A stretch of 33,004 bases of DNA from Bacteroidales bacterium (GTDB lineage Bacteria > Bacteroidota > Bacteroidia > Bacteroidales > F082), in contig JAFTXI010000028.1 of assembly GCA_017461665.1 (NCBI GenBank), positions 1-33,004 of the forward strand, in the 5' to 3' direction. This document shows positions 30,953 to 33,004 of the stretch, piece after piece (positions within the stretch are counted from its first letter, which is position 1; the number at the start of each line of letters is the position of its first letter). Made by a program: the position numbers and the translations under genes. Under the pieces are notes generated by a model. It searched no databases. It saw only the letters and a program-made list of their open reading frames with translations, and was not told the origin of the DNA.

Positions 30953-30967
30953 TTAGGAATTATTGTA

Positions 30968-31020
30968 GAGACGCACCAACAACACCTATAAATTTAAAAC
31001 AGGTGTTGTTGATACGTCTC
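30968..31020. repeat. GAGACG-type long palindrome downstream of the DUF2723 gene
   Basis: Arms 30968-30987 and 31001-31020 pair over 20 positions with two mismatches just inside GAGACG/CGTCTC. The inner 11 bp, CAACAACACCT with AGGTGTTGTTG, are perfect. No T-run. Confidence 0.82.
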
Positions 31021-31045
31021 AATAATTAGGAAACTCATAGATGCG

Positions 31046-31099
31046 GAGACGCATTATTTACATGTTGTTTAATTTCTATAGGTGTAATTAGTACGTCTC
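31046..31099. repeat. Second GAGACG-type palindrome in tandem
   Basis: GAGACG (31046) pairs with CGTCTC (31094), followed by an imperfect stem that includes TTACA/TGTAA and two wobbles. The C-A mismatch next to the ends is the same as in the 11347 and 30968 copies. Confidence 0.75.
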
Positions 31100-31137
31100 T
31101 ACCAAACTCCATTACTTCAAAATTCCAAATCTTTTCT

Positions 31138-31152: not shown

Positions 31153-33004
31153 ATGAGAATGCTCATCCTTTACATATTATTCTTAGCCTTCGGCTGTCAA
31201 CAGACAACAGACAACAGACAACGGACAATAACTTCGACTCTGACTTCGACTCTGACTTCGGTCGCTGAGCCTGTCGAAGCGCCGGGCGATGTTGTCGTGC
31301 CTTCGACAAGCTCAGGCACCTGTACGGACACATTGAATGTGTCCACGTATATAATATGCAATAAGGACGTATGCGATACGTCCCTACGTAGTGACTCGGT
31401 GACTTACTACAAATCCCAGCTCCTCATTGCCGACTCCTTATATAAAAACTATCTCCCTCAATATAATTTCAACGAGGTTAAAGCTGCCGTAGTGTTTTTT
31501 GAGAAGTCATCAAGTCACCAAGTCTCTAAGTCACCAAGTAGAGATAATCAAAACAACTCGTTGACTTGGCGACTCGTTGACTCGTTGACCCATTCTCTTG
31601 GTGACTCGGTGACTCGGCGACTCGGTGACTTGAACTTCCTCTCCGCTCGCGCGCACTACTACCACGCCGTAGGTCTCACTGAACGCGATGATGTCGTTGG
31701 CGCCTGCGAACATTACTTAAGAGCGCTTGAAATTATGGAACTTGAATTAGAAACTGAAAATTTGAAAGCTCTAAAACTTCAAAACTTCAAAACTTCAGAA
31801 CCTCAAAATCTCGGTGACTCGGTGACTCAGCGACTTGGTGACTCAAATTACGAAAAACTCCGTTTCATCGCCCTAACCTACACCCGTCTCGGAAGATTAT
31901 TCCTAAATGAGAACTATTGTGATCATGCAATTACAAAATACAAGAATGCATTGAAATATGCTGAGATTCTGGGGAACAACGACTCTAAAGCTAACATACT
32001 TAAAGAGTTAGGTAACTCATATCAGCTTGCCAATAAACCTGATAGTGCCTTATATTATTACAATGAATCACTAAGATACAATCCGAGTTTACCGAATAGA
32101 TTGGATGTTGAGAAGAGTATTGCTAAGATTTTGTTTTACAAAGACGAAAAAGATAGTGCGTATGTTCTTTTAAAAAATAATCTTAGAGAAATTGATAATG
32201 GAAACTTAAAATACTCATATTACTATACATTAGGTGATATGTATTTCAATGATAAAAAATATGACTCAGCACTTTATTATTTAGAAACAAGTTTGGATAA
32301 CGATATTGTTACAAAGAAGGTTGCATTCACAACAAAATTGTCAGCTATTTATGATATCTTAGGTGATTATGATAAAAGAGACTATTACGATAATTTCTCA
32401 GCCAAAATGCTATTGAATCATGCTAATAAAGAGGTTGATAACAAACAGCTTCAAGTCATTTACGACAATTATAAGGAAAGGAAAAACGAAAGAGAAAGGA
32501 GCATAGCCAAAGCCAAAACAAGGAAACAAATAATTGCAATAGTTCTGTGTGTATTTGTTATTCTTGCGTCCTTATCAATATTTTTTAAATACAGGCATCA
32601 AAGACATATCAATAAGTTAACGGAAGATATAGACGATTATGCCAATGAGAACAGGCAGCTTGTTGAGGATTTTCAAAAAGTCAGTAGCAAGAAAGACAAG
32701 ATTATCAGACAGCAGAAAAAAGAAATAGAAGAGATAAAGATTCAACTCGACAAGAAAAACCGTGTCAATCTTGAAGCCTATTATGATTCTGAGATATGCA
32801 AAAAGATTATGGCAAGAAAAGATTCCGACTTCTCATGTTTGAAAGAAGACGAATTAGCTTTGTTGATGAAGTCGGCAGATATGCATCTCAACAATATCTC
32901 GACACGATTATGCGAGCAATTTCCAACTTTAAACACAAACGACTTATATACCATTTGTTTGATTATACTTAATGTTGAGAAAAACAAGTTCCCATATCTG
33001 TTGG
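31153..33004 (+). CDS. Partial TPR / transmembrane / coiled-coil putative regulator with in-frame repeat DNA
   Basis: Open for 617 codons from ATG 31153 to the right edge; the C-terminus is missing. The leader MRMLILYILFLAFGC suggests a lipoprotein (Cys15). Residues ~15-232 are a patchwork in which DNA repeats are read as protein. Interspersed are normal-looking segments such as YKSQLLIADSLYKNY and ARAHYYHAVGLTERDD, which look like a TPR start. TPR-like helical repeats fill ~233-440 (ALTYTRLGRLFLNEN, LGNSYQLANKPDSALYYYNE). One membrane segment lies at 457-478 (IIAIVLCVFVILASLSIFF). A coiled coil follows (~485-540). The last part (NLEAYYDSEICKKIM, LNTNDLYTICLIILNVEK) resembles the C-terminal regulatory domain of Bacteroidales TPR-transmembrane proteins, which usually ends in a helix-turn-helix. 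Its ligand and targets are unknown. Confidence 0.75.
   Translation, partial: MRMLILYILFLAFGCQQTTDNRQRTITSTLTSTLTSVAEPVEAPGDVVVPSTSSGTCTDTLNVSTYIICNKDVCDTSLRSDSVTYYKSQLLIADSLYKNYLPQYNFNEVKAAVVFFEKSSSHQVSKSPSRDNQNNSLTWRLVDSLTHSLGDSVTRRLGDLNFLSARAHYYHAVGLTERDDVVGACEHYLRALEIMELELETENLKALKLQNFKTSEPQNLGDSVTQRLGDSNYEKLRFIALTYTRLGRLFLNENYCDHAITKYKNALKYAEILGNNDSKANILKELGNSYQLANKPDSALYYYNESLRYNPSLPNRLDVEKSIAKILFYKDEKDSAYVLLKNNLREIDNGNLKYSYYYTLGDMYFNDKKYDSALYYLETSLDNDIVTKKVAFTTKLSAIYDILGDYDKRDYYDNFSAKMLLNHANKEVDNKQLQVIYDNYKERKNERERSIAKAKTRKQIIAIVLCVFVILASLSIFFKYRHQRHINKLTEDIDDYANENRQLVEDFQKVSSKKDKIIRQQKKEIEEIKIQLDKKNRVNLEAYYDSEICKKIMARKDSDFSCLKEDELALLMKSADMHLNNISTRLCEQFPTLNTNDLYTICLIILNVEKNKFPYLL
31202..31260. 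repeat. Two adjacent tandem repeats inside the TPR gene
   Basis: AGACAAC is repeated three times (31202-31222). ACTTCGACTCTG is then repeated twice plus a half unit (31231-31260), read as TSTLTSTLTS. The left paralogue has related but non-identical sequence here. Confidence 0.85.
31260..31319. repeat. REP-like pair in inverted orientation inside the TPR gene
   Basis: 31260-31284 is the exact reverse complement of 22-46 (core CTTCGACAGGCTCAGCG). 31297-31319 carries the variant CTTCGACAAGCTCA in the opposite orientation, closed by GTGCC/GGCAC arms. Both are translated in frame. Confidence 0.8.
31326..31383. repeat. Two palindromes inside the TPR gene
   Basis: GGACACATT/AATGTGTCC (31326-31334, 31336-31344) and GGACGTAT/ATACGTCC (31365-31372, 31376-31383). 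The second has the same arms as the infB terminator stem core. Both are read in frame. Confidence 0.8.
31503..31540. repeat. AAGTCACC 8-bp repeat units, reverse orientation
   Basis: About four degenerate units of the type CAAGTCAC, the reverse complement of the GGTGACTC type found further on. Translated as SSHQVSKSPS. Confidence 0.7.
31559..31632. repeat. GGTGACTC-type 8-bp tandem repeats inside the TPR gene, first block
   Basis: Units GACTCGTT and GGTGACTC recur with an 8-base period, interrupted by CCCATTCTCTT. The frame shifts by one each unit, so every third unit would give TGA. The two units in that phase read CGA (31570, 31618). Confidence 0.85.
31811..31849. repeat. GGTGACTC-type 8-bp tandem repeats, second block
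   Basis: Four units; the one in the TGA phase reads CGA (31831-31833). Just before it, 31769-31810 is an AAAACTTC-rich tract, also in frame. Confidence 0.85.

Follow-up and report, generated by a model that had tools for sequence, protein, structure and literature searches.

Repeats that lie in frame inside genes have been described in several systems. Rickettsia palindromic elements (RPEs) are dispersed repeats that occur in the reading frame of unrelated genes, where they persist as translated inserts (PMC10969869, citing Ogata 2000, 2002); in the excerpted parts of that source they are about 150 bp long and encode a conserved peptide. REPs are palindromes of 20-40 bp with a GTAG or CGTC tag, the GTAG types being linked to transposase genes, and short GTAG/CGTC REPs, many of them dimers, are located inside ORFs of known proteins, including DNA-repair genes, in many species, as far as the excerpted account goes (PMC3733652). 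Excerpts of two further sources describe coding palindromes, i.e. inverted repeats inside translated genes, in the mitochondria of Nematomorpha (PMC6649704), and bacterial simple repeats of 6-9 nt, whose tandem units are of similar size to the octamers reported here (PMC4692102).

The window analysed here is the whole 33,004-nt stretch of contig JAFTXI010000028.1, and its last gene carries octamer repeats within the open frame. Like the RPEs, this octamer repeat is dispersed and lies in frame in unrelated conserved genes; it is set apart from the RPEs, as these are described in the excerpts, by an arm of about 36 nt that occurs in both orientations and all three frames and thus encodes differing peptides. 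Like the intragenic REPs of the excerpted account, the octamer repeats are short, often paired and situated inside ORFs of known proteins, but a single octamer arm is a direct array in which no GTAG or CGTC tag was seen, and the computed fold pairs two arms. The presence of inverted repeats within translated genes is shared with the coding palindromes of Nematomorpha, whose arms, in the parts of the source at hand, are perfect and encode conserved protein parts, whereas the octamer arms are imperfect and code for variable loops. In contrast to the 6-9 nt simple repeats as excerpted, the number of octamer units is mostly four, the units vary and the arms come in inverted pairs. By analogy, the octamer repeat works like RPEs and intragenic REPs, yet it lacks the sequence features that define them. 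Going by these excerpts, Rickettsia and the GTAG/CGTC REPs already provide cases of in-frame repeats in genes; new is an untagged four-octamer array, direct as a single arm and read in both orientations, of which we found no report in the open-access PMC literature (most subscription papers lie outside that scope).

The frame of the window gene opens at position 31153 and runs off the contig end at 33004 (Table 1). In addition to TPR_12, its product is matched by TPR_2 of Pfam (2.9e-09) and thus qualifies as a TPR repeat protein. Reading of the sequence suggests a putative membrane segment and a coiled coil, as well as a putative C-terminal helix-turn-helix in the full-length paralogs. A first-pass annotation of this DNA had claimed that, between 31559 and 31849, GGTGACTC octamers cycle through the three phases and keep their T where it is harmless. 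This was borne out: we examined 15 octamer positions in the gene, 11 out of phase and four in phase, and TGA was retained in 11/11 out-of-phase octamers (31390, 31398, 31560, 31576, 31584, 31600, 31608, 31624, 31813, 31821 and 31837). The accompanying statement that all three units in the TGA phase read CGA is accurate for the codons at 31570, 31618 and 31831, but omits a fourth, degenerate in-phase unit at 31592 (ATTCTCTT), which reads TCT. Exact GGTGACTC occurs in five copies in the window, compared to a mean of 0.42 in shuffled sequence, and autocorrelation of positions 1-30000 revealed no 8-base rhythm, only the coding period of 3. If three C-bearing units are dealt randomly among 14, the probability that all three fall in phase is 1/364. 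The annotation had also proposed a permutation of unit order, and this upheld the pattern: shuffling of units within each of the three tracts of the window gene alone gave P = 0.022, and for the 29 sense tracts described below none of 20,000 shuffles reached zero in-phase TGA. The region comprising both arms (31500-31640) has a predicted fold of -53.9 kcal/mol (z -4.6) with an outer stem of 31504-31511 and 31624-31631. In this predicted fold, hairpin and reading frame would be in conflict, as the in-phase C at 31618 would remain unpaired, facing the A at 31517, where a T would pair.

Table 1 Features of the TPR gene at the right end of the window. Positions are those of the window.
Feature	Position	Strand	Basis
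Host gene, TPR protein, 3'-truncated by the contig end	31153..33003	+	ORF; Pfam TPR_12 2.7e-11; paralogs and homologs
CAACAGA 7-bp repeats, N-terminal coding part	31198..31228	+	
ACTTCGACTCTG 12-bp repeat	31231..31260	+	
Inverted repeat GCTGAGCCTGTCGAAG ... CTTCGACAAGCTCAGG within the open frame	31261..31320	+	Encoded stretch also in frame in paralogs C13, C34, C16
Palindrome GGACACATTGAATGTGTCC within the open frame	31326..31344	+	Read from sequence
Palindrome GGACGTATGCGATACGTCC within the open frame	31365..31383	+	Read from sequence
Two octamers AGTGACTC GGTGACTT, out of phase, TGA retained	31390..31405	+	Sequence, phase count
Left arm, four inverted octamers AAGTCATC AAGTCACC AAGTCTCT AAGTCACC	31504..31535	-	Sequence, tract list
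24-nt spacer separating the arms	31536..31559	.	
Right arm of nine octamers, one of them degenerate; units in phase are 31568 (CGA), 31592 (TCT), 31616 (CGA)	31560..31631	+	
AAAACTTC octamers, second octamer family	31773..31808	+	
Four octamers GGTGACTC GGTGACTC AGCGACTT GGTGACTC; third in phase, CGA at 31831	31813..31844	+	

The window contig belongs to the 2.49-Mb draft genome of a gut Bacteroidales (G000); all genomes compared are drafts. A three-unit pattern allowing up to two mismatches matched 112 times in this genome, overlapping places counted, and a reversed control pattern 0 times. With a narrower pattern, two of 60 genomes (G000, 35 of its genus and 24 of its order) gave matches, namely G000 itself and G009. 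A third genome, G060, with 79 pattern matches, was found via the closest named record, JAFTUF010000058.1 (L077) of Bacteroidales bacterium RGIG4154 from roe deer colon, whose TMEM260-like protein is 96% identical. Beyond the TMEM260-like gene, the DNA of this record is unlike the window; at L077:11258-11345 it contains octamers as an inverted pair, the 24-nt spacer of which is similar. Around the pattern matches we collected at least 139 tracts in G000 and G009 (76 and 63) and 51 in G060, with 100 of the 112 places in G000 entered and tracts with identical 40-base flanks counted once. An A at unit position 3 was scored as a mismatch, and AGA-rich tracts are thus under-sampled in every class.

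Tracts were classed as coding if an ORF of at least 200 codons extended 15 codons to either side, and as lying outside ORFs if no 150-codon ORF extended 10 codons to either side; intermediate tracts were assigned to neither class. We dropped from the phase count the ORFs lacking Pfam support (L044, L052, L218, L231 and the 270-codon ORF of L217) as well as the opposite-strand readings of L048 and L233, and retained L045, L047, L205 and L206 on homology and L225, in which the only tract is antisense, because it visibly resembles L049. The 31 tract-bearing genes of G000 and G009 that passed this filter contained 29 sense tracts, in which TGA occurred in 0/31 in-phase units compared to 42/85 out-of-phase units, with 11.3 in-phase TGA expected from shuffling within tracts. 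After removal of paralogous copies (21 tracts), the respective numbers were 0/23 and 31/62. The in-phase codons were 11 CGA, 7 AGT, 6 AGA, 4 GGA, 2 TAT and 1 GGT. Along the four-unit tracts, TGA was found at successive unit positions in 12, 9, 0 and 10 of 23 sense coding tracts, in 11, 9, 10 and 11 of 23 antisense coding tracts and in 13, 27, 18 and 22 of 47 tracts outside ORFs; in G060, the numbers outside ORFs were 10, 8, 10 and 3 of 16. TGA is thus unevenly spread over the unit positions outside ORFs, too (13/47 at position 1; 3/16 at position 4 in G060). The annotation had named, as evidence that would count against its claim, an every-third pattern in intergenic tracts as well; tracts of this kind were looked for outside ORFs and not found. 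Taken by genome, in-phase TGA amounted to 0/14 versus 79/153 outside ORFs in G000 (P = 9e-5) and to 0/9 versus 51/132 in G009 (P = 0.026), and the phase pattern is general in these two genomes. In G060, the TPR, MatE, RimO and PriA genes have two CGA and two AGA in phase, with TGA in 4/11 out-of-phase units, and the TatD gene has one CGA and one AGA in phase. The absence of in-phase TGA is partly built in, because open frames were required and these exclude in-phase TGA by definition; independent weight comes from the T kept out of phase, the antisense and non-ORF controls, the in-frame tracts ahead of conserved domains and the CGA/AGA differences between relatives.

The tract-bearing genes with family matches include biotin ligase-like, RimO, DapB, CobW, U32, PriA, SBP_bac_5, MatE, AroA, OEP, TilS, AroE and others. 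The RimO, DapB, PriA and AroA tracts are found in G000 and those of TilS and AroE in G009, the AroA and AroE matches falling below the NCBIfam curated cut-offs. In these six and other genes, the tracts are in frame and the matched domains lie downstream, so a working protein requires that its tract be read through. PriA was matched in 40/40 genomes, and in an alignment of nine genomes it has 37 extra amino acids in G000, 11 different residues in G009 and none in the other seven. Likewise counted by eye, RimO has 32 extra residues in G000, 8 in G009 and none in eight further genomes, and DapB about 10 in G000 and 3 in G009. For all four aligned proteins (PriA, RimO, DapB and AroA), relatives have either no tract or a different, mostly shorter insert. 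In PriA, RimO and MatE, the in-phase unit differs between relatives, one having CGA and the other AGA, two codons for arginine; in PriA, all four units are CGA in G000 and AGA in G060, the out-of-phase ones included, and in this gene the choice of C or A is therefore not phase-specific. The sense arm encodes ...GDSVTRRL... and the antisense arm ...SHQVTESPS.... The annotation had concluded that the repeat-filled region is translated and matters. That it is translated is very probable, judging from the in-frame tracts ahead of conserved domains; that it matters is not supported for the repeat itself, since the tract peptides differ among paralogs and are, as such, absent from the aligned homologs of most other genomes.

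Of 62 tract segments compared between G000 and G060, 16 allowed anchoring at both ends, 13 of them in ORFs and three outside. The length differences in ORFs were multiples of 3 in 12/13 cases (0, 6, 12, 24, 42, 48, 66, 66, 72, 102, 105 and 126), eight of the 13 comparisons being TPR paralogs against the same G060 genes; the exception, RimO, differs by 65, and one of its anchors probably lies inside the repeat. The three non-ORF segments differ by 6, 1 and 66, two of which are also multiples of 3. Apparent SBP_bac_5 orthologs of G000 (L065:1155-3122) and G009 (L213:2237-4039) have tracts at three common sites, with GT-type units in one ortholog and mostly GG-type units in the other, and L065 has a fourth insert not shared by L213; the unit type seems to have changed in concert at a fixed place.

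The window gene (C21) is part of a paralogous TPR family in G000. TPR homologs of the genus and the order align before and after two loops, and it is these loops that contain the octamers in G000. Octamers of the GGTGACTC type are present at both sites in C21 and C17 and at site 1 in C13, those of the CTTCTGGA type at both sites in C34 and C16 and at site 2 in C13. C21 and C17 show an in-phase CGA/AGA swap at two sites, and C13 is shorter than C21 by exactly 24 bp, i.e. three units. Between the two tract sites, pN among C21, C17 and C13 is 0 over 31 codons. At site 1, there are 0 changes over 39 codons between C21 and C13, the flanks having pS values of 0.24-0.57, which looks like a tract exchange between paralogs. 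A gene fragment of G000 (C27, L057) is identical to the C17 gene (L047) across 864 bases and is perhaps an assembly duplicate.

We consider it likely that dispersed, lineage-restricted repeats persist as translated in-frame loop inserts and that stop-bearing copies are removed by selection on the host protein. This reading builds on the observed repeat family and its distribution, on the open in-frame tracts in conserved genes and on the phase rule with its controls. A dispersed repeat, consisting of a single arm or of two inverted arms around a spacer, would have spread into intergenic DNA and permissive gene loops, the tracts being selfish or neutral repeats that reached such loops by insertion or by copying. 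Since 8 is not divisible by 3, the units would cycle through the three phases and every third one would read TGA. A copy with an in-frame TGA would break the protein and be lost, and one with CGA, AGA, AGT or another sense codon would stay, because a stop would remove the downstream conserved domains; an out-of-phase T would be free to remain. Paralogs probably replace each other's tracts in frame by copying. Translation itself, the mode of movement and purifying selection rather than directed change are the steps that we infer.

Read in this manner, the tracts constitute a natural experiment on dispersed DNA turning into protein. Since 8 and 3 share no factor, each tract is its own control, with one and the same unit in stop-making and harmless phases only bases apart. 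The result is a direct readout of nonsense selection on tracts within genes such as PriA, RimO and DapB, with an unusually clean internal control, and a caution that an insertion confined to one species can, in such proteins, be a translated repeat.

The unit of the element is NNNG[A/T]CT[C/T], 8 bp in length, and its usual form is a half unit followed by four units. Among the matches listed, 131/190 tracts have four units (54/76 in G000, 48/63 in G009 and 29/51 in G060); three-unit tracts are rarer (24/190), although the search pattern needed only three units. A half unit, CTC or CTT, precedes 58/76, 50/63 and 37/51 tracts, respectively, half unit and four-unit state being counted separately. 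Neighbouring tracts within 70 nt are arranged -+ in 26/31 cases, and the types of the two arms agree in 20/26 pairs, compared to 13.7 expected from shuffling (P = 0.00035); G000 and G009 contain 22 inverted pairs. Despite the agreement of arm types, we do not claim a maintained hairpin, because in C17 the right arm has changed while the left arm was kept. The alignments and the G000-G060 segments revealed no clean empty site with boundaries or target-site duplication, a duplication that, along with terminal inverted repeats and mobility, marks MITEs. A search for a mobilising enzyme gave 0 matches to Y1_Tnp (PF01797) in G000, which is 94% complete, and one in G009, 28/36 genomes having a match; mobilisation by a RAYT, as in the GTAG type of REP, was rejected for G000 on this result. 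On a less probable reading, these tracts would represent a new mobile or copied element of fixed size, in which a half unit and its four octamers add up to about 36 nt, or 12 codons, and one copy is hence frame-neutral by construction. Such an element would spread among coding loops, either as one arm or as a hairpin pair; its units at fixed sites would be rewritten together (to the GT type in one species and the GG type in another), with the stop-phase unit kept stop-free. Other octamers (CAAAACTT, TCTGGACT and similar) often continue into arrays in the same register, e.g. in L040, L055 and L063. In G009, a near-identical longer element, with a spacer of 35 nt between its arms, is found no more than about 200 bases from contig ends (L208, L210, L217, L222, L226, L228, L234 and L236); its copies thus appear long and alike enough to break the assembly, and may be recent.

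The annotation had left two ways in which the repeats could have become stop-free, editing by selection for an open frame or survival of stop-free variants only. Of the frames through tracts outside ORFs, 32% are open in the sense and 66% in the antisense direction. Genes hold 14 single tracts in sense and 19 in antisense orientation, or 11 versus 19 without three sense tracts of the CTTCTGGA family. These counts are about what loss of stop-bearing insertions predicts, and survival suffices to account for them. The support for editing is mixed: in-phase CGA is in excess in G000 (6/14 compared to 13.5% of the non-TGA units outside ORFs, P = 0.007), but G009 shows no clear enrichment (3/9, P = 0.26), and, both CGA and AGA coding for arginine, an amino-acid preference may explain the CGA. 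Overlapping with the preferred reading is an active adjustment, in which gene conversion or a biased T-to-C change would rewrite tracts after insertion and remove in-phase stops. The CGA excess in G000, the apparent exchange of site 1 between C21 and C13 and the apparent SBP_bac_5 orthologs, in which three tract sites are retained but the unit types differ, would all be compatible with such rewriting; with the single-tract counts fitting loss alone and the G009 result as it is, we regard it as unlikely.

Growth of an ordinary octanucleotide microsatellite by slippage in loops, possibly with phase variation, would also yield tandem 8-bp units, and a difference of exactly three units, as between C13 and C21, would suit it. 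The copy number does not fall off from short to long as expected for slippage, being four in most tracts with three-unit tracts rarer, the units are heterogeneous and neighbouring tracts mostly lie in the -+ arrangement, which makes this origin improbable. The same can be said, somewhat more firmly, of copying in 24-bp blocks that already had C in each third unit, by which the phase pattern would stem from the repeat and not from selection. TGA status does agree at lag 3 in 23/29 comparisons in sense coding tracts and in 26/35 in antisense coding tracts, but the antisense tracts agree at lag 2 as well (51/65), and outside ORFs the agreement at lag 3 (43/84) is no higher than at lag 1 (114/218). 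Moreover, neither the antisense nor the non-ORF class has a TGA-free unit position, and the in-phase codons are diverse; we therefore set this origin aside as largely refuted. Finally, it is hardly credible that a repeat-rich untranslated or pseudogene stretch stayed open by luck, even though the window gene is truncated by the contig end and its first 80 codons are largely repeat, since the paralogs C34, C16 and C17 are open across 688, 676 and 643 codons, pN is 0 between the tract sites and the phase rule also applies to unrelated conserved genes.

Some further observations concern the surroundings of the window gene and its relatives. Between the TMEM260-like and TPR genes of the window (30960-31110), there are REP-like inverted repeats, GAGACGCACCAACAACACCT ... 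AGGTGTTGTTGATACGTCTC. At the left contig end (1-126, - strand), the sequence MRMLLFYILFALLSQQ... resembles the N-terminus of another TPR paralog; both contig ends thus seem to be flanked by the TPR gene family, which may have caused the assembly break. Which palindromic element the TPR loop hosts varies with the species. The loop, framed by Y/F-F/Y-DS and ARAHY or AKAHY, is short in four further aligned genomes (G001, G008, G015 and G017) and holds other palindromic in-frame stretches in nine loops of other genomes (L181, L177, L179, L185, L190, L189, L186, L178 and L206). These stretches are GCGGACTTG(A/G)TCC(G/A)C in G014 and G002, CCTGAGCTTGTCGAAGGG in G018, CCCCCTTTGAAAGGGG in G007 and G022, GGACGCACGCGGTGCGTCC or near variants in G038, G003 and G023, and AATTAGGAATTA..CCTAATT in G009.
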